Below are positions 7,400 through 51,322 of a DNA stretch of 64,000 nucleotides, piece by piece. Both the position numbers and the translations under genes were made by a program. The notes beneath the pieces were generated by a model. The model did not search any database, was not told where the DNA came from, and saw nothing but the letters and a program-made list of their open reading frames with translations. This DNA is from Mucilaginibacter arboris. GTDB lineage: Bacteria > Bacteroidota > Bacteroidia > Sphingobacteriales > Sphingobacteriaceae. Each line of letters starts with the position of its first letter. The stretch's first letter is position 1. The stretch covers positions 1 through 64,000 of the forward strand of contig NZ_WPIK01000007.1 in assembly GCF_009754915.1 (NCBI RefSeq). The letters run 5' to 3'.

Positions 7400-8125
7400 T
7401 CAATATTCCGGGTTCCCTGTAATTTCTTCCAGTTTATTTCGAACCGTTTGTAAATCGCGCGACAGCTTTTTCTCTTTATCGTTGGCTTTGGTTTTGTAAC
7501 CTTTGTATTCTTCCTCCAAATCATTATAAAGTTTGGTACGGTAATGTGCTTCGCGCCGTGCACTTGTCGATAAAAAAATAACTGTAGCAGCTAAAGCACC
7601 TAACACAATAACCAATCCCCACATAATGGTATTATAAGTAGTTTTTGCTACAGGCATTCCCAAAAAGTTAATGCTGTTAACCTGTGCAGTAGTAGCATTT
7701 AAACTTTCTTCTTTGCTGTTCACATCACTTTGCATAGCAGCCATGCTTTTAGTTTGTGCAGCTAATTTACTATGGATAGCAGCTAAAGCGATTCGCTGGG
7801 TGCGTAAAGTATCCTGCATGCTTCTGTAAAATGCAGTAATCATGGGCTGCTGGTAATGATAAACTTTGCTTAATATAAACTGGTACTGGCCGTTCAAACT
7901 TTTATCGGTACTAACAGCAATAGGCGTAGTGGCAGATGGTTTTAAAGGATAAGCCAAATTAGTTTGCGCAGGGTTAACCTTTGCCGGATTAACGGTAGCT
8001 TGTTTAGGCTTAGTAGTTTGCCGCGCCCTTGCCCCTGTTTTTACAGTATCTTGCCCGTAACCAATTGAAAAAAAAGTAGATAACAGAACTACCTGCAATA
8101 AACGGAATGCTGTTTTTAGTTGCAT
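7400..8125 (-). CDS. Uncharacterised secreted/membrane protein with coiled coil
   Basis: About 241 residues from the ATG at 8125, chosen because MQLKTAFRLLQVVLLSTFFSIGYGQ is a good signal peptide; the open frame continues upstream to 8200 without one. A Lys/Thr/Pro/Ala-rich linker follows, then helical segments (YHYQQPMITAFYRSMQ...), one membrane span (TIMWGLVIVLGALAATVIFL) and a charged C-terminal coiled coil. I do not recognise a family. The topology suggests a periplasmic part and a cytoplasmic coiled coil. A diverged repeat copy overlaps the start codon. Confidence 0.6.
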   Translation of the reverse strand: MQLKTAFRLLQVVLLSTFFSIGYGQDTVKTGARARQTTKPKQATVNPAKVNPAQTNLAYPLKPSATTPIAVSTDKSLNGQYQFILSKVYHYQQPMITAFYRSMQDTLRTQRIALAAIHSKLAAQTKSMAAMQSDVNSKEESLNATTAQVNSINFLGMPVAKTTYNTIMWGLVIVLGALAATVIFLSTSARREAHYRTKLYNDLEEEYKGYKTKANDKEKKLSRDLQTVRNKLEEITGNPEY

Positions 8126-8137
8126 AAAAGAAGCTTT
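8114..8137 (+). repeat. Diverged TAAAAGAAGCAT-family repeat over a start codon
   Basis: TTTTA-GTTGCA-TAAAA-GAAGCTTT. Read on the other strand it supplies AAGCTTCTTTTATG, i.e. the leader and ATG of the 7400-8125 gene. An opposing TAAAAACAGCAT variant overlaps it at 8105-8118. Confidence 0.6.
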
Positions 8138-24129: not shown

Positions 24130-24687
24130 ATGAGACACGGAAGAAAAGTAAACCATTTAGGCCGCACAGACAGCCATCGCAAAGCGATGCTTGCAAACAT
24201 GGCTTCTTCGCTTATTTTACACAAGCGCATTACTACAACATTAGCAAAAGCAAAAGCTTTGCGCATGTATGTTGAGCCTTTAATCACCAAATCTAAAAAC
24301 GATACTACGCATTCCCGTCGTACTGTTTTTAGCTACTTAAAAGATAAAGAAACTTTAACTATCCTTTTTCGTGAGGTTGCTGAGAAAGTTGCAACACGCC
24401 CGGGAGGTTACACGCGTATTGTAAAATTAGAAAACCGTTTAGGTGATAATGCTGAAATGGCAATTATTGAACTGGTAGATTACAATACAGTTTATGTTAA
24501 AGGCGCTCCTGCTGCCGAGAAAAAATCAACCCGTCGCCGTGGTTCTGGCCGTGGTAACAAAGCCGATGGTAATGTTAACGCTGCTGAAGGTGGTATTGAT
24601 TCTCCTGTAGACCAGGCTACACCTGCAACACCAATTCCTGATTCTGCATCAGCAGGCGAAGAATTGGCACCGGGTGAAGAATTGTAA
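24130..24687 (+). CDS. rplQ: 50S ribosomal protein L17 with a C-terminal extension
   Basis: 185 residues. The first ~125 form L17 ([24 protein letters not shown]...[30 protein letters not shown]). The remaining ~55 are basic ([14 protein letters not shown]) and then acidic/Pro/Ala-rich low complexity, absent from E. coli L17. Last gene of the cluster. Confidence 0.96.
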
Positions 24688-24717
24688 ATAAAATTGTCCT
24701 GATTATAGGATAGAAGA

Positions 24718-24747
24718 AGCTCTGGTTTTTATCAGGGCTTTTTTTAT
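24718..24747 (+). terminator. Terminator of the ribosomal/rpoA cluster
   Basis: Stem AGCTCTG/CAGGGCT (one G-T pair), 7-nt loop, followed by a run of seven T. The T-run continues into the palindromic repeat at 24741. Confidence 0.75.
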
Positions 24748-24784
24748 GTGGTAAAAGAAGCATGCTTCTTTTACCACATAAAAA
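24741..24784. repeat. Inverted pair of TAAAAGAAGCAT repeats (perfect palindrome)
   Basis: A plus-strand copy (TTTTA-TGTGG-TAAAA-GAAGCATG) abuts a minus-strand copy, giving a perfect 44-nt palindrome with no loop and a GCATGC centre. Confidence 0.95.
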
Positions 24785-24982: not shown

Positions 24983-26893
24983 ATGGCTAAAATTATTGGA
25001 ATCGACTTAGGAACAACCAACTCCTGCGTGGCAGTAATGGAAGGTAACGAACCTGTTGTTATTGCAAACAGTGAAGGTAAACGTACAACTCCATCTGTTG
25101 TAGCGTTTGTGGATAATGGCGAACGCAAAGTAGGAGATCCTGCAAAACGTCAGGCTATCACCAATCCAACAAAAACTATATCTTCTATTAAACGATTCAT
25201 GGGAAACCAGTTTAACGAGGTTACCAAAGAAATTGAACGCGTTCCATATAAAGTAGTTAAAGGCGATGGCAACACACCAAGAATTGCTATTGGCGACCGC
25301 AATTATACGCCGCAGGAAATTTCAGCAATGATCCTTCAAAAAATGAAGAAAACTGCTGAAGACTTTTTAGGAACTGAAGTAACAGAAGCAGTTATTACTG
25401 TTCCTGCATATTTTAACGATGCACAACGTCAGGCTACAAAAGAAGCTGGCGAAATTGCAGGTTTGAAAGTTCGCCGTATTATTAACGAACCAACTGCTGC
25501 TGCTTTGGCTTATGGCTTGGATAAAGCACATAAAGACATGAAAATCGTAGTTTTTGACTGCGGTGGTGGTACGCACGACGTTTCTGTGTTAGAATTAGGT
25601 GATGGTGTATTTGAAGTAAAATCAACCGATGGAGATACGCACTTAGGTGGTGATGACTTTGATCAGGTAATTATCGACTGGCTGGCAAATGAATTTAAAA
25701 GTGATGAAGCAATAGATCTTCGTAAAGATCCAATGGCTTTACAACGTTTAAAAGAAGCTGCTGAAAAAGCTAAAGTTGAATTATCAAGCACCACTCAAAC
25801 TGAAATCAACTTACCTTATATTACCGCTGCTGACGGCATGCCTAAACATTTGGTAAAAACTTTAACCCGTGCAAAATTTGAGCAATTAGCTGATAGTTTG
25901 ATTAAACGTACGATCGAGCCTTGCCGTACAGCGTTAAAAAATGCTGGTTACAGCACTTCTGATATTGACGAAATTATCCTGGTTGGTGGTTCAACCCGTA
26001 TTCCTGCTATTCAGGATGCAGTTGAGAAATTCTTCGGAAAATCTCCTTCAAAAGGTGTTAACCCTGATGAAGTTGTTGCGATCGGTGCTGCAATTCAAGG
26101 TGGTGTTTTAACCGGCGAAGTTAAGGATGTATTGTTGTTAGACGTTACCCCGCTTTCTTTAGGTATCGAAACGATGGGTGGTGTAATGACGAAATTAATT
26201 GATGCAAACACAACTATTCCGTCTAAAAAATCAGAAACTTTCTCTACTGCTTCTGATAACCAGCCTTCTGTAGAAATCCATATTTTACAAGGTGAACGTC
26301 CGATGGCTGCCCAAAACCGTACAATTGGCCGTTTCCACTTAGATGGAATTCCTGCTGCACCTCGTGGTATCCCTCAGGTTGAGGTTACTTTTGATATTGA
26401 TGCAAACGGTATTTTACATGTATCTGCAAAAGATAAAGCAACTGGCAAGGAACAAAAAATCCGTATCGAAGCATCTTCCGGTTTAACGGATGCTGACATC
26501 AAGAAGATGAAAGATGAAGCTGAAGCAAATGCAGAATCTGACAAACGCGCTAAAGAAGAAGTTGAAAAACTGAATGCTGCCGATGCGCTGATCTTCTCAA
26601 CAGAAAAACAACTGAAAGAGTACGGCGATAAAATTTCTGCTGATAAAAAAGCTCCTATTGAAGCTGGTTTAGCTAAATTGAAAGAAGCTTATGCTGCTAA
26701 AAACATAGCTGATATGGACACTGCACAAACAGAGCTGCAAAACGCCTGGAACGTTGCATCTGAAGAAATGTATAAAGCTACACAAGATGCAGGTACACAA
26801 GGTGGCCCAACTGCTGATGGCGGTGCAAACCAGTCAACTGCAAATGAAGCTGCTGATTCTGTAACTGATGTTGATTTTGAAGAAGTAAAATAA
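24983..26893 (+). CDS. dnaK: Chaperone DnaK (Hsp70)
   Basis: 636 residues, full length. ATPase domain from [18 protein letters not shown], linker [18 protein letters not shown] (~389-406), substrate domain and lid ending in a Gln/Gly/Ala tail with the conserved acidic TDVDFEEVK. The phosphate-2 loop reads [10 protein letters not shown] (192-201) where most DnaKs have DLGGGTFD(I/V)S: Cys193 and His198 are unusual. Works with DnaJ and GrpE, neither of which is in the window. Single gene with its own terminator. Confidence 0.98.
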
Positions 26894-26918: not shown

Positions 26919-26953
26919 AAAAGGTGATTCCAATTTTGGAAGCACCTTTTTTT
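26919..26953 (+). terminator. Terminator of dnaK
   Basis: 14-bp near-perfect stem AAAAGGTG-TTCCAA / TTGGAA-CACCTTTT with a run of T. Overlaps the start of the next repeat copy. Confidence 0.85.
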
Positions 26954-26972
26954 ATGCGGTAAAAGAAGCATC
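26950..26972 (+). repeat. TAAAAGAAGCAT-family repeat
   Basis: TTTTA-TGCGG-TAAAA-GAAGCATC. Its T-run is shared with the dnaK terminator. Ends six bases before the convergent rdgB stop. Confidence 0.92.
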
Positions 26973-30645: not shown

Positions 30646-30668
30646 GATGCTTCTTTTACCACCTATTT
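30646..30668 (-). repeat. TAAAAGAAGCAT-family repeat over a stop codon
   Basis: Minus strand reads AAATA-GGTGG-TAAAA-GAAGCATC. The TAG stop of the 30663 gene lies within its left half; the rest follows in sense orientation. Confidence 0.85.
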
Positions 30669-31520
30669 TTCAATAGGAGAAAAAATCTCTACTAACATAT
30701 TCCATTTATAGGATTTATCAGGTTCCCAAATACGCACATAATTGTAATTATTGGTGATCTCGCCTTTTTTAATTTTAGCTTTACCGTAACTGTAAGCTAA
30801 ATCCCCGCTGGTAGCACGGCCGGCGCCTGTATTTAAAGCTTCGATATTAATGGCTTGGTTACCAATAAACTGCAATATTTTATCCTGCCCAATAATGGGT
30901 TCAAAACCAGGGAAATAATACCTTCCGTCTAAAGTAATAAACTCTTTATAAGCAGAAAGCGAAGAAAGAGAAAGCGACGAATTAAATAATTTATCGGTAG
31001 TGATGATGATGTTACGGCCGTTAAAAGGATCTTTACTGTTGATACGTGGCGTAATAGTTGGTTCTTTAAAATCTACGATCTGATCTTCTTTTGGCTCCGG
31101 GTGCTGCATGTTTATGTTGAAGATGAGCTTCAATTTTCCGCCGGCATCTTTCCGCCATATAGAAAGATATTCGCCAAATTCCGAATCTTCTGTCCCATTA
31201 TCTTTTATAGCATACGAGCCAGCGGTAAAAGCCAAGTCTCCATTGGCAGAAATACGAGCGATTTTAGGTATTGCTGTTAATTTGCCTGCAATTTTTGGGC
31301 TGCTAGCATAAAAGGTTTTGGCAGTAACAGGTTCTGGTTTAAACACAATAGCGTCTGCATCTACAACTGCCATTGTGCCCTCTTTAATGCCTTTTTGGGC
31401 AACTACCCTGTTAAAATCTTTTTCTGCATCTAATACTTCTTTTACCTGTGCAGTTTTTTGTGCGGAAGCAATTTGGTTAAAGCATAAAAAAGCTACAAAA
31501 GCAATTGATATTTTTTTCAT
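30663..31520 (-). CDS. Secreted protein with two SnoaL/DUF4440-like domains
   Basis: 285 residues. Signal peptide MKKISIAFVAFLCFNQIASA. Two related alpha+beta units follow. Residues ~27-145 start with VLDAEKDFNRVVAQKGIKEGTMAVVDADAIVFKPEP, the DUF4440 pattern. Residues ~180-280 are KEFITLDGRYYFPGFEPIIGQDKILQFIG...WNMLVEIFSP. NTF2-fold proteins of this kind bind small ligands; no catalytic residues are obvious. Single gene. Confidence 0.7.
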   Translation of the reverse strand: MKKISIAFVAFLCFNQIASAQKTAQVKEVLDAEKDFNRVVAQKGIKEGTMAVVDADAIVFKPEPVTAKTFYASSPKIAGKLTAIPKIARISANGDLAFTAGSYAIKDNGTEDSEFGEYLSIWRKDAGGKLKLIFNINMQHPEPKEDQIVDFKEPTITPRINSKDPFNGRNIIITTDKLFNSSLSLSSLSAYKEFITLDGRYYFPGFEPIIGQDKILQFIGNQAINIEALNTGAGRATSGDLAYSYGKAKIKKGEITNNYNYVRIWEPDKSYKWNMLVEIFSPIEK

Positions 31521-37970: not shown

Positions 37971-39662
37971 ATGAATAAATTGAACATGAATAAACTATCG
38001 TTAGTAAAAAACAAATTTATAGTGGTAAAAGAAGCATGTTGCCTCATGCTTCTTTTACTGGCAATTTCTTGTCAGCAAAAAAAAGAATACAATGCAGATT
38101 TGCTGGTTAAAAACGCGCGTGTTTATACGGTAGATAACCGCTTTACCGTTGCAGAAGCTTTTGTGGTGAGGGACGGAAAAATTTTAGCGGTTGGCAAAAC
38201 TTCTGATCTGGAGAAAAAATACCAGCCAAAAGAAGTAGTTGATGCCGCAGGAAAAGCAGTTTTCCCGGGTTTTATTGATTCTCATGCACACTTTTACGAA
38301 TATGGAATGAGTTTACAAGCCGTTAACTTAAAAGATATTAGCAGTTGGCAGGAGATTGTAGATTCTGTAAAACATTACGCAGAAAATAATACGGATGGCT
38401 GGATCATTGGCAACGGCTGGGACCAAAACCGCTGGAAAAACAAACAGTTTCCGAACAAACAGCAGTTAGATGCTTTGTTTCCGGTTCGGCCGGTTTTGCT
38501 GACACGTGTTGACGGACATGCAGCAATTGCTAACCAGGCAGCTTTAAATATTGCCGGAATCAAACCAAACCAAAAAATTGCAGGCGGAGAAATTGAAACG
38601 CTAAATGGTAAATTAACCGGAATTTTGGTTGATAACGCCGTAAGTTTAGTAACACATAAAATTCCGGTTTTAACAGACGATCAAACCAATAATGCTTTTT
38701 TACAGGCGCAGCATAATTGTTTTGCCGTTGGTTTAACTACCGTTGCAGATTGCGGGCTGGATTACAGCTTGGTGAACACCATTCGCCAGTTGCAAAACCG
38801 TGGCGATTTAAAAATGCGCCTGTTTGTTATGCTTTCGGATAACCAGCAAAACCTGGACCTTTTATTTCGAAACGGAGCTATCAAAACACCTCGTTTAAAT
38901 GTAAGCTCTGTTAAGGTTTATGCCGATGGCGCTTTAGGTTCGAGAGGTGCGTGTTTGTTAAAACCTTATGCCGATCAACCAAAATGGAATGGCTTTTTAC
39001 GAAGCCCGAAGCAACATTTTCAGGATATAGCAAATTTATTAGCCGCAAAAGGTTTCCAGATGTGCACACATGCAATTGGCGATTCAGCAAACAGGGTGAT
39101 GCTTAAAATTTATGCAAGTGTTTTAAAAGGGAAGAATGATCGCCGCTGGCGGATAGAACATGCCCAGATTATTGATCCGGCAGATTTTAAATACTTCGGA
39201 GAAAATAATATTATTCCATCTGTACAACCTACACACGCTACTTCTGATATGAACTGGGCTATACAGCGCTTAGGAAAAACACGCATAAAAACAGCTTATG
39301 CTTATCAGCAATTATTGCAGCAAAATGGCTGGCTGCCTTTGGGAACAGATTTTCCGGTAGAAAATGTTAGTCCGTTATATACATTTTATGCAGCAGTTGA
39401 ACGAAAAGACCTGAAAGGGTTGCCCGAAGGTGGTTTCCAGAAAGAAAATGCGTTAACGCGTGAACAGGCAATCAGGGGAATGACGATCTGGGGCGCAAAA
39501 GCAAATTTTCAGGAAAACGAAAAAGGAAGCATTGAGCCTGGAAAATTTGCTGATTTTGTTATTCTCGATCAGGATTTAATGCGTATAAAAGGCAGCGAAC
39601 TGCCAAAAGTGAAAGTGTTAAAAACTTATATCAACGGAGAAAATGTATATCAAAAGCGTTAA
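37971..39662 (+). CDS. Amidohydrolase-family lipoprotein (YtcJ-like)
   Basis: 563 residues. Signal segment ending in the lipobox LLAISC (Cys34), so membrane-anchored; an in-frame Met at 37986 is an alternative start. Metal-dependent amidohydrolase barrel with PGFIDSHAHFYEYG (~101), long insertion typical of family 3, THAIGDSANR (~364), RIEHAQIIDP (~389) and LGTDFPVENVSPL (~465). Hydrolyses C-N bonds; the substrate is unknown. The signal peptide is partly encoded by an inverted pair of repeats. Its end overlaps the next gene by 20 bases. Confidence 0.88.
   Translation: MNKLNMNKLSLVKNKFIVVKEACCLMLLLLAISCQQKKEYNADLLVKNARVYTVDNRFTVAEAFVVRDGKILAVGKTSDLEKKYQPKEVVDAAGKAVFPGFIDSHAHFYEYGMSLQAVNLKDISSWQEIVDSVKHYAENNTDGWIIGNGWDQNRWKNKQFPNKQQLDALFPVRPVLLTRVDGHAAIANQAALNIAGIKPNQKIAGGEIETLNGKLTGILVDNAVSLVTHKIPVLTDDQTNNAFLQAQHNCFAVGLTTVADCGLDYSLVNTIRQLQNRGDLKMRLFVMLSDNQQNLDLLFRNGAIKTPRLNVSSVKVYADGALGSRGACLLKPYADQPKWNGFLRSPKQHFQDIANLLAAKGFQMCTHAIGDSANRVMLKIYASVLKGKNDRRWRIEHAQIIDPADFKYFGENNIIPSVQPTHATSDMNWAIQRLGKTRIKTAYAYQQLLQQNGWLPLGTDFPVENVSPLYTFYAAVERKDLKGLPEGGFQKENALTREQAIRGMTIWGAKANFQENEKGSIEPGKFADFVILDQDLMRIKGSELPKVKVLKTYINGENVYQKR
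38016..38065. repeat. Inverted pair of TAAAAGAAGCAT repeats inside a signal peptide
   Basis: Plus copy at 38016-38038 and minus copy at 38045-38065 form a ~15-bp stem with a 6-nt loop. It is translated as VVKEACCLMLLLLA within the lipoprotein signal sequence. Confidence 0.88.
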
Positions 39663-41475
39663 CCGCAGTTGTATTGCCGCATTATTATGGCTTGTTGTAA
39701 TTTTAAATTCTGCCTGTGCACAAGTTCCAGGTCCGCATCAACAAAACCAAGGTTTTTTAGCTGCTAAAAGAAGCATCGAAAGTTCTACAGTTTTGCTAAA
39801 TAACCAGGACCAGTTGGTTCCGGTAAAAAACCTCGATCAGCAAAAAATTGCCAGTGTTCGTTTCGGTTTTGAAAACGCCTCGGTTTTTGATAGCCTTCTT
39901 AATAAATACACAAAAATCCAATCTTTTAATGCCTCGGCTTATGCCGGAAGCAGAACTTTGGATGGATTATTATTCGACCTAAAATTTTATACAACCGTAA
40001 TTGTTCAGTTGAATAAACAGGATTTAGAGAACCCGGCGCTGCTGCCCTTTTTATCGATGTTAGATCAGCATAAAAACTTAATTGTTGCTTGTTTCGGTGC
40101 ATTGCAACTACGCCCGGAATTTGACCTGCTAAAAGGAGTACTCTTATGGTCGCCTGTTAATTCAGCAGTTGCAGCAAATTATGCAGCACAAATGATTTTT
40201 GGCGGCGCAGCAGCAACCCAAAAGTTAAGCGCTAGTATTTCTCCAAAATATCGAAACGGCGATGGTTCTGCTACAACGCAAACGCGTTTAGCTTATTCTG
40301 TTCCGGAGGAAGCCGGGATCAATGCTGATAATTTAAATCCGGCTATTGATAAAATTGTTGCAGAAGCGATTAACCAAAGGGCAACGCCGGGAGCCGTAGT
40401 TCTGGTAGCCAGAAACGGTAAAGTTATTTTTAACAAAGCTTATGGCAGCCACACTTACAACGATACTTTAAAAGATAAGATAACAGATATTTTTGATCTG
40501 GCATCGGTTACAAAAGTATCGGCTACCACCATGGATGTAATGCGGCTTTACGACCAGGGAAAGTTAAACCTCGATTCTACAGCCGGTTCTTACTTAGCTT
40601 CTGCCCGTAATACCAACAAAAATGATATTAAAATACGTGAGTTCTTAACGCATCAATCTGGTATGGTTCCGGATATTATCACTTGGGAAAAGTTAAAAGC
40701 CGTTGATCGTAGTACAGATTCATCTGCTGCGTTTCCTACCAAAGTGGCAGATCATTTTTATCTGAAAAAAGATTATTTTAAAGATGTAATCTGGCCAGAT
40801 ATGCTTAAATCTCCACTTAAAACAAGAGGAAAATATGTTTACAGCGATTTGAGCATGTATTTTATGAAAGAAATTGTAGAAACTATTTCTTCTACACCAC
40901 TCAATGTTTATGTCCAGCAAAACTTTTATTCACCATTGGGTATGCAAACCGCAGGTTTTTTGCCGCTTAACCGCTTTCCGAAAGATCAGATTGTCCCAAC
41001 AGAAAATGATTCTGGTTTCCGCCATCAATTGCTGATTGGTTATGTGCATGACCAGGGCGCAGGATTGCTTGGAGGTGTTTCTGGTCACGCTGGTTTGTTT
41101 GCCAGCGCCAATGATCTTGCTATTTTATATCAGATGATTTTAAACCGGGGAACTTATGGCGGCGTTCAATATTTAAAGCCGGAAACGGTTGATCTTTTTA
41201 CTTCAAAACAATCTGATGTAAGTCGCCGTGGCTTAGGTTTTGACCGCTGGGATCCAAACCGTGCAACCCGCTATCCTTCTGTTCTGGCCTCAGATCAAAC
41301 TTATGGACATACTGGTTATACCGGAACTTGTTTTTGGGTCGATCCGAAATATAACCTTGTTTATATCTTTCTTTCTAACCGCGTAAACCCAAAAGTTACA
41401 GACAAATTATCTGATTTGGGTATCCGCAGAAGAATACAGGATGCCGTTTATGAAGCGATAGAAAAAGGTATTTGA
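39643..41475 (+). CDS. GH3 C-terminal domain fused to a beta-lactamase-type serine hydrolase, lacking the GH3 catalytic domain
   Basis: 610 residues. Signal peptide ends near NSACA. Residues ~40-215 match the C-terminal domain found after GH3 (NagZ) barrels: SIESSTVLLNNQDQLVPVKN...QMIFGGAA. Residues ~225-605 are a class C beta-lactamase/esterase domain with SVTK (nucleophile Ser, ~288), YSD (~403) and GHTGYTG (~549). Bacteroidetes usually carry ~1000-residue fusions of GH3 barrel + C-domain + beta-lactamase; the ~350-residue barrel is absent here. Probably acts on cell-wall or ester substrates in the periplasm. Starts inside the end of the amidohydrolase gene. Confidence 0.85.
   Translation: MYIKSVNRSCIAALLWLVVILNSACAQVPGPHQQNQGFLAAKRSIESSTVLLNNQDQLVPVKNLDQQKIASVRFGFENASVFDSLLNKYTKIQSFNASAYAGSRTLDGLLFDLKFYTTVIVQLNKQDLENPALLPFLSMLDQHKNLIVACFGALQLRPEFDLLKGVLLWSPVNSAVAANYAAQMIFGGAAATQKLSASISPKYRNGDGSATTQTRLAYSVPEEAGINADNLNPAIDKIVAEAINQRATPGAVVLVARNGKVIFNKAYGSHTYNDTLKDKITDIFDLASVTKVSATTMDVMRLYDQGKLNLDSTAGSYLASARNTNKNDIKIREFLTHQSGMVPDIITWEKLKAVDRSTDSSAAFPTKVADHFYLKKDYFKDVIWPDMLKSPLKTRGKYVYSDLSMYFMKEIVETISSTPLNVYVQQNFYSPLGMQTAGFLPLNRFPKDQIVPTENDSGFRHQLLIGYVHDQGAGLLGGVSGHAGLFASANDLAILYQMILNRGTYGGVQYLKPETVDLFTSKQSDVSRRGLGFDRWDPNRATRYPSVLASDQTYGHTGYTGTCFWVDPKYNLVYIFLSNRVNPKVTDKLSDLGIRRRIQDAVYEAIEKGI
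39755..39777 (+). repeat. TAAAAGAAGCAT-family repeat inside a gene
   Basis: TTTTA-GCTGC-TAAAA-GAAGCATC with perfect TTTTAGC/GCTAAAA arms. Translated sense as FLAAKRSIE at the junction between signal peptide and GH3-C domain. Confidence 0.88.
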
Positions 41476-49963: not shown

Positions 49964-51322
49964 TTATTTTTTTACCTGTTGTAAATCCAACTTTAAATTA
50001 ATACCAGCCGAACCAAACAACAATTGCTGCGAACCCAATCCGCCTAAAGGATATTTTAAAAAAGGTTCAATTTGCAATTTGTTTTTACCTAAAGGATAAG
50101 CAAAGCCAACAGCAATATTCAGCGTTTTAGCAAAATTAAAATTGTTAAAGCTTTTGATGTTTTGCGTTGTAGAGGTGGAAGTGTTGTAATGATAATCGTA
50201 AGCTTCTTTTACAAAAGTATTGGAACTGAAACCGGCAGAAACAGCCATACTGTTTTTACCGGGTAAAAAAGTATAAGTTAAATTAACCGGTATGTCGAGT
50301 GCAACTAAACTGGCATTAATACTGCTTAAACTTGAATTTGTAACGGTAATGCTGGAAGAAGGCATGGTAGCGTAATTACTGGCAGCCAGTAAACTTCCAT
50401 TTGGTATATTTTGGTTATAAGTCAGGTTGTTTTGCATCAGTCCTAAGCCTGTAGATATTTTAAAATTTTTCGCCAGGCGGAAATCTGTAGAAACACCTGC
50501 TCCTAAACCTAACTGATTATTGCTGCCGCTGGCGTAATTTAAATGCGGCCCTGCATACAATTCCAAACTAAATATCGAAGATTTTTTAACAGGATTTTTA
50601 ACCGTTTCTGCCTTTGCTGCTTTATTTAGGACAGCAGGTTTTACAACCGGCGTATTTGTTTTTTTTGCAATAACTAACTGTTTCCTGCCGGAAGAATCTG
50701 CTGGAACAGGAACTTGAATTTTAGCTTGTTTAGCTGTACTGTCCGATACATTTTTTATACCGGTAAAAGAAGTATTGTTTTGATTGCTTACTTCCTGTTT
50801 GTTAACCGATAAGTCTGCCTGTTCTTTTTGGGCCAAAACTTGCTTCGGGATAAAACCTGGTACTGTTTTTACAGGTGTTTTTTCCGTATTTACAGTATCG
50901 GCAGCAATTCTTTGCTTTACGATTTTGTTAATGCCACGCAAATGGTTTTCTGTAAAACCCAATGCTGTTTTTACCGGTGTTTTTTGTGTGTTAGTTTCTG
51001 GAAGAATTTTACCTGATACAGCTTTTTTAGGAGAGAAATACTGATGAGGCAAAGCAGCAACCGAATTTTTTGCTTGTTGCTTTTTTACTTTTGAAACCTT
51101 GTTTTGAAGAATATCAGGCTGATACAACCAAAAAACAAAGGCAATAAAAATTAAAGCAGCAGCAGAACCAAACCACCGGAAAAAATATTTCCGGCGGTTT
51201 TTTTCTGGATATTTTTCACGCAGCAAGTTCCAGCCTTCTTCGGCTGTTCCGTCATCGTATTCCTCAAAAACCTGTTTGATCCGGTTTTTTAATTCCTCGT
51301 CAAAATTTTCATTTTCCATCAT
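49964..51322 (-). CDS. Membrane protein paired with an ECF sigma factor, outer-membrane beta-barrel-like C-terminus
   Basis: 452 residues. Short cytoplasmic N-terminus (EELKNRIKQVFEEYDDGTAEEGWNLL), one membrane span (~48-66), a Thr/Lys/Pro-rich periplasmic linker with two KTPVKT-GF repeats, and ~200 residues resembling PorT-type barrel proteins (PHLNYASGSNNQLGLGAGVSTDF...). Such proteins follow ECF sigma genes in Bacteroidetes and may act as anti-sigma factors; this is inferred. Its start overlaps the sigma factor stop by four bases. A repeat copy is translated inside it as NNTSFTGIKN. Confidence 0.72.
   Translation of the reverse strand: MMENENFDEELKNRIKQVFEEYDDGTAEEGWNLLREKYPEKNRRKYFFRWFGSAAALIFIAFVFWLYQPDILQNKVSKVKKQQAKNSVAALPHQYFSPKKAVSGKILPETNTQKTPVKTALGFTENHLRGINKIVKQRIAADTVNTEKTPVKTVPGFIPKQVLAQKEQADLSVNKQEVSNQNNTSFTGIKNVSDSTAKQAKIQVPVPADSSGRKQLVIAKKTNTPVVKPAVLNKAAKAETVKNPVKKSSIFSLELYAGPHLNYASGSNNQLGLGAGVSTDFRLAKNFKISTGLGLMQNNLTYNQNIPNGSLLAASNYATMPSSSITVTNSSLSSINASLVALDIPVNLTYTFLPGKNSMAVSAGFSSNTFVKEAYDYHYNTSTSTTQNIKSFNNFNFAKTLNIAVGFAYPLGKNKLQIEPFLKYPLGGLGSQQLLFGSAGINLKLDLQQVKK
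50753..50776 (+). repeat. TAAAAGAAGCAT-family repeat inside a gene
   Basis: TTTTA-TACCGG-TAAAA-GAAGTATT, antisense to the gene and read as Asn-Thr-Ser-Phe-Thr-Gly-Ile. Confidence 0.85.
50960..50986 (-). repeat. Variant repeat (TAAAAACAGCAT type) inside a gene
   Basis: On the coding strand ACACCGG-TAAAAACAGCATTG is translated NTPVKTALG; a second diverged unit at 50862-50885 gives KTPVKTVPG. Together they make a duplicated peptide in the linker. Confidence 0.5.

Follow-up and report, generated by a model that had tools for sequence, protein, structure and literature searches.

The intergenic region between rplQ and dnaK in the analyzed window (the whole stretch of DNA studied, 64,000 nt) contains a hairpin with a T tract and, directly after it, a perfect palindrome; a further exact copy of the motif from which the palindrome is built lies downstream of dnaK (Table 1). 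The hairpin, a probable rplQ terminator, was missed by a simple consensus terminator scan; the segment 24690-24750 folds with -22.6 kcal/mol (z -5.9), and the T run of the hairpin doubles as the AT tract of the first motif copy. As originally predicted, the two 22-nt arms of the palindrome (24741-24762 and 24763-24784) are complementary over their full length (100%), with no loop between them; by simple arithmetic, the chance expectation for a perfect 44-nt palindrome in the window is 64000 x 4^-22, or about 4e-9. The folding energy is -24.5 kcal/mol for RNA (z -8.9) and -18.2 kcal/mol for DNA (z -9.7). The palindrome consists of two overlapping inverted copies of a dispersed 23-nt motif, TTTTTA-N5-TAAAAGAAGCAT. 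These had been described as abutting repeats: the two opposed copies are indeed present, but the units do not merely abut and instead overlap by the self-complementary AT. The claim that both copies carry the same N5 sequence (TGTGG in one arm, CCACA in the other) holds as well. The Rfam covariance-model search of the window matched only a tRNA. The window also contains, once, at 2688-2739, an unrelated perfect palindrome of 52 nt whose 26-nt arms adjoin without a loop; it overlaps the start of an ORF at 2693 and could be either biological or an assembly fold-back.

Table 1. Features of the rplQ-dnaK locus and motif copies in the window (G001 and G002 are genomes of the same genus)
Feature	Coordinates	Strand	Evidence
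rplQ (ribosomal protein L17), upstream gene	24130..24687	+	PF01196, E 1.3e-37
Hairpin with T tract, probable rplQ terminator	24713..24744	+	Fold of 24690-24750
Perfect 44-nt palindrome, two motif copies tail to tail	24741..24784		Arm comparison, folding
Motif copy 1, TTTTTA-TGTGG-TAAAAGAAGCAT	24741..24763	+	0 mismatches to consensus
Variable spacer of copy 1 (TGTGG)	24747..24751	+	Orthologous sites: spacer drifts at background rate
Motif copy 2, TTTTTA-TGTGG-TAAAAGAAGCAT	24762..24784	-	0 mismatches to consensus
Variable spacer of copy 2 (TGTGG on -, CCACA on +)	24774..24778	-	Arm complementarity; drift at orthologous sites
dnaK, downstream gene	24983..26893	+	PF00012, E 1.2e-260
Another exact motif copy, after dnaK	26949..26971	+	Consensus match; motif kept in G001 and G002
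In-gene motif copy (peptide FLAAKRSI)	39754..39776	+	No insertion relative to outgroup proteins

The motif includes an AT tract, a free spacer of 5-6 nt and a strict 12-nt core, TAAAA(GAAG or ACAG)(C/T)AT, with the AT tract and the core about one helical turn apart (A/T at -8 to -13, AAAA at 0 to 3). When the sites from 464 kb of the own genome were aligned on AAAAGAAGCA, A was found at -13 and A or T at -12 to -8. The spacer showed weak preferences only (for G at -3 and R at -2), positions -1 and +10 were both T, and there was no conservation past about -18 to +12. The core profile is sharply peaked, with 202 exact copies of TAAAAGAAGCAT compared with at most 34 of any single mutant in the same 464 kb, and the second core, AAAAACAG(C/T)A, has the same architecture as the GAAG-type core. 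Across all variants, the information content of the motif is 25 bits. In the window itself, the core AAAAGAAGCA with at most one mismatch occurs 73 times compared with 15 expected, a count reached by no shuffle. Head-to-head overlap, with one AT tract serving both copies (ATGCTGTTTTT-N7-8-AAAAGAAGCAT), is seen about 17 times in 1.3 Mb, for example at 50247-50269 of the window and in overlapping copies such as 8107-8136.

We compared the three available genomes of one Mucilaginibacter-like genus, namely the genome that contains the window (G000) and two genus mates (G001 and G002). The pattern TTTWN6TAAAAGAAGCAT is represented by 1,249 copies in G000, with 0 in the control; strict copies number 1,402 in G001 and 596 in G002, and 0-1 in other genomes of the family and class. 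In the three genomes, forward and reverse copies are alike. The ACAG(C/T) variant is present in 720-819 copies in each of the three genomes and at about the background level elsewhere, with G002, the genome with fewer strict GAAG copies, having relatively more ACAG-type sites. With all variants included, sampled stretches of the three genomes contain 1.07, 1.14 and 1.09 sites per kb, and the copy number is roughly 2,000 or more per genome. Among 60 relatives, the motif is confined to the two genus mates; another 250 or so genomes of the order, each belonging to the same family, are at the control level, and an analysis of k-mer over-representation in five further genera of this family brought up no counterpart. 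A Peptococcaceae match of the palindrome core, which came without a matched flanking spacer or AT tracts, was taken as chance.

According to simple ORF calls, 343 GAAG-type sites in 804 kb are intergenic and 225 genic, with 88% of the sequence coding; the ACAG-type sites in the same 804 kb include 61 intergenic and 130 genic ones. The sites show no strand bias relative to genes (148 sense, 139 antisense), the genic copies use several frames and encode several peptides, and there is no specificity for promoters or terminators, with codirectional, convergent and divergent gaps all carrying sites. A promoter element was rejected, given the lack of position or strand preference and of enrichment in divergent gaps. 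Once neighbors are merged, the mean spacing is 1.3 kb, close to random. No replichore strand skew was detected in two contigs, and a polar chromosome motif, such as Chi or KOPS, was rejected on this ground.

A site-by-site comparison with the sister genomes (about 82% identity), performed via synteny, revealed uneven divergence within the motif. Across 72 intergenic comparisons, identity is 97-100% for the AAAA of the core and about 90% for the middle of the AT tract, whereas it is 65-79% for the spacer and about 50-80% for the flanks. The core positions that distinguish the variants (4, 5 and 8) are 85, 86 and 67% identical, respectively, as expected if sites switch between the permitted cores. 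There are orthologous sites where GAAGCAT in one species corresponds to ACAGTAT in another, a three-base switch between permitted cores (e.g., 30646-30671 and 38013-38038 of the window). The core is kept in 65 of the 72 intergenic and 106 of the 130 genic comparisons, compared with 16-25% for a random identical 10-mer; since this null demands identity of all 10 bases while retention accepts four cores, the two are not exactly matched, and the contrast between core and spacer within sites is the stronger evidence. Where a genic motif was lost, a point change was usually responsible (18 losses without a gap, 6 with one). Because the core is conserved while the spacer and flanks drift, these alignments indicate that the motif is maintained rather than a neutral insertion.

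The same contrast largely refutes the possibility that the sites are neutral mobile repeats of the REP/REPIN or MITE kind that spread by insertion, with the palindrome being one such insertion. The motif does resemble REP/REPIN in being short, intergenic-rich and often paired and inverted, a RAYT-type transposase is encoded in two of the three genomes (G000 and G002), and there are head-to-head doublets with a fixed spacing of 61-80 nt, a few of which share spacer sequence. However, the RAYT is flanked by a different repeat, GGTCGGGATTTGCAATCCCGACC, G001 shows only one IS200-type match and none of the RAYT type despite its 1,402 copies, and conservation stops at about 25 nt. Moreover, the in-gene copy that was tested is gap-free against most of the outgroup proteins: in the gene 39643-41475, the motif-coded peptide aligns ungapped to 5 of 8. 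Unlike REP/REPIN, each motif copy alone has little hairpin potential, and the cores are conserved under constraint instead of being decaying copies; neither a RAYT flanked by copies of the motif nor a transposase wherever the motif is amplified was found. Mobilization by RAYT/REP was rejected on the basis of the RAYT neighborhood and the lack of a RAYT-type match in G001. Thus, a mobile repeat is an unlikely nature for the motif, and we consider this origin of the palindrome highly improbable.

The neighborhood of the RAYT-type Y1 transposase (L138 7589-8125 and L139 7466-8011, amid GGTCGGGATTTGCAATCCCGACC) includes several duplicated prfC ends, each finishing in the motif variant AATTAGGTGGTAAAAGAAGTATG; the motif copies near RAYT lie mainly in these ends. 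The head-to-head doublets with a core spacing of 61-80 nt (45 in 894 kb versus 2-4 in neighboring 10-nt bins) are concentrated in one contig of G000 (C12, about 130-290 kb; L072-L079). Their spacers are mostly unrelated, a few being clearly copies, and no equivalents were found in the sister genomes, where the region is not syntenic.

Tail-to-tail pairs with a loop of 0-7 nt are found in 26, 28 and 21 places in the three genomes, and their flanks were compared; the covariation set consists of the 64 tight pairs with both AT tracts present. All six spacer positions are identical in 22 of these 64, compared with 0.46 expected for random site pairs and a mean of 0.92 upon re-pairing of arms within the set (maximum of 6 in 20,000 shuffles). 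Thus, the N5 covariation between arms that the original prediction implied for other inverted pairs is indeed observed, although two thirds of the tight pairs lack a full spacer match. The 22 matched pairs carry 20 different spacers, which points to change within pairs as opposed to one favored sequence. Matching fades with distance, to 3 of 23 pairs at a core spacing of 27-40 and 0 of 55 at 121-400, and is complete in 14 of the 21 pairs with identical cores versus 8 of the 43 with different cores. Some local direct repeats share spacers too; these are probably tandem copies. The pair between rplQ and dnaK itself illustrates the concerted change of both arms that had been claimed: TGTGG/CCACA in G000 corresponds to TGGGGG/CCCCCA in G001, where both arms are one base longer and still complementary, and the G002 pair is degraded. 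Complementarity in both species despite differing spacers is also seen at two further orthologous pairs (TGCCGG and ACCCGA; L184 and L212), whereas others are never complementary.

Such matching might reflect hairpin selection, whereby tight inverted pairs would be kept as RNA or DNA hairpins (terminators, protection of 3' ends) and compensatory substitutions would pair the spacers. The stable fold of the palindrome, the mostly intergenic location of tight pairs downstream of genes, the presence in some arms (e.g., L184 and L219) of A tracts through which a U-tail follows the hairpin, and the persistence of complementarity across species with different spacers at some loci and never at others are all compatible with this scenario; furthermore, USS and DUS pairs have been reported as terminators (PMC1852404). 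However, the palindrome has no U-tail on either strand (AAAAA ends both strands, and the scan for intrinsic terminators finds none there), and the separate T-tract hairpin upstream can end rplQ transcription. Across the set, albeit with small numbers, matching is no more common with an A-tract arm than without one (11 of 32 each); terminator function by itself is therefore an insufficient explanation, and wobble-type transitions are not overrepresented among pairs with a single mismatch (1 of 7, the other 6 being transversions). A terminator role for the palindrome was accordingly rejected, and hairpin selection as the general cause of spacer matching appears possible but doubtful. Template switching is established in E. 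coli as a process that perfects quasipalindromes (PMC7202029). Within a palindrome, it fits the arm matching at least as well as terminator function. It would account for spacers that are exactly identical, for arms at rplQ-dnaK that changed length together, and for matching that depends on tight spacing but not on the U-tail. We therefore favor arm-to-arm copying over hairpin selection for the spacer matching, without proof.

With respect to the function of the motif, the features shared with USS and DUS include approximately 1,000 or more copies on both strands, conservation above the surroundings and, as in the H. influenzae type, helically spaced AT tracts. Type IV pili are used by the known uptake-sequence systems, but a search of G000-G002 found no ATPase of a type IV pilus or T2SS (PF00437) above the Pfam cut-off; ComEC (PF03772) is present in the genus but, being found in nearly all relatives as well, is not informative on uptake. 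Direct comparison of the motif core, AAAARMAGYAT, with the known USS/DUS cores AAGTGCGGT, ACAAGCGGT and GCCGTCTGAA gave no match, and the literature on uptake sequences in Bacteroidetes and on Mucilaginibacter repeats yielded nothing relevant. The closest architectural parallel is the Haemophilus influenzae USS, with the extended motif aaAAGTGCGGTnrwwwwwnnnnnnrwwwww (PMC1852404) and well-described AT tracts (PMC1852404, PMC7811141): in both cases, a short strict core adjoins an AT tract, a second AT tract follows past about 6 free positions, there are more than 1,000 copies on both strands, inverted pairs occur, and the sites are more conserved than their flanks. Read in the same direction, however, the core of the motif is ATGCTTCTTTTA or ATGCTGTTTTTA and unrelated to that of the USS; there are two coexisting core variants, and the host belongs to Bacteroidota. 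Neisserial DUS are described as dense, conserved above their flanks, in permissive locations and with inverted pairs (PMC2397512). The motif resembles DUS and their dialects (PMC2397512, PMC3630211) in its density of about 1 per kb, lineage specificity, conservation at permissive orthologous sites, closely spaced inverted pairs and dialect-like variants. It differs from DUS in its unrelated sequence and bipartite structure with an AT tract, and also in the spacer covariation within pairs, which would be impossible to show for the solid 10-12 nt DUS. The cyanobacterial HIP1 (PMC4390886) likewise is a very frequent, lineage-specific short motif that also occurs within genes, but it is an 8-nt palindrome tied to methyltransferases, whereas the motif described here is bipartite and not itself palindromic. 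Given that the core differs, the pilus ATPase was not found and the uptake role is one that we only infer, we do not assign the motif to USS/DUS.

The main functional rival is that the motif is not an uptake signal but a site for a nucleoid-associated or chromosome-organizing protein, with the palindromes arising by the same route. The AT tracts about a helical turn apart, the thousands of evenly spread sites on both strands and the apparent lack of a pilus ATPase in the three genomes would suit such a protein. However, the sites of nucleoid proteins do not usually combine 25 bits with so strict a core, and the absence of replichore strand bias in two contigs argues against polar motifs of the KOPS or Chi type; on balance, we regard this alternative as unlikely.

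Our best explanation, to which we would give somewhat less than an even chance, is that the palindrome represents overlapping inverted copies of a genus-specific, uptake-signal-like recognition motif whose arms were homogenized by copying. Under this model, a DNA-binding protein, perhaps one involved in DNA uptake, would recognize the motif, and selection or molecular drive would preserve it for that reason. In tail-to-tail pairs that have next to no loop, a template switch during DNA synthesis within the hairpin could copy one arm onto the other; the free spacers would thereby become complementary, although a copy standing alone has no need of this. Hairpin selection, at the level of RNA or DNA, may contribute as well at some loci, in particular where a U-tail is present. 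More tentatively, the motif could be an independently evolved Bacteroidota uptake self-recognition sequence that shares the two-AT-tract architecture of the Haemophilus USS, while its core is unrelated and no type IV pilus is involved; the tight palindromes would then record template-switch copying.

To our knowledge, uptake sequences are established only in Pasteurellaceae and Neisseriaceae, and none is known in the lineage of this motif. If the above proposal is correct, this would be a third, independent case, in a Bacteroidota genus without a detected pilus ATPase, and one on which to examine whether specific uptake arises time and again with a common geometry. Should the motif serve another function, a protein would still be needed to account for a strongly constrained, genus-specific motif at about 1 per kb. 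Separately, a spacer that is free to vary within a constrained motif provides a natural record of copying between palindrome arms.
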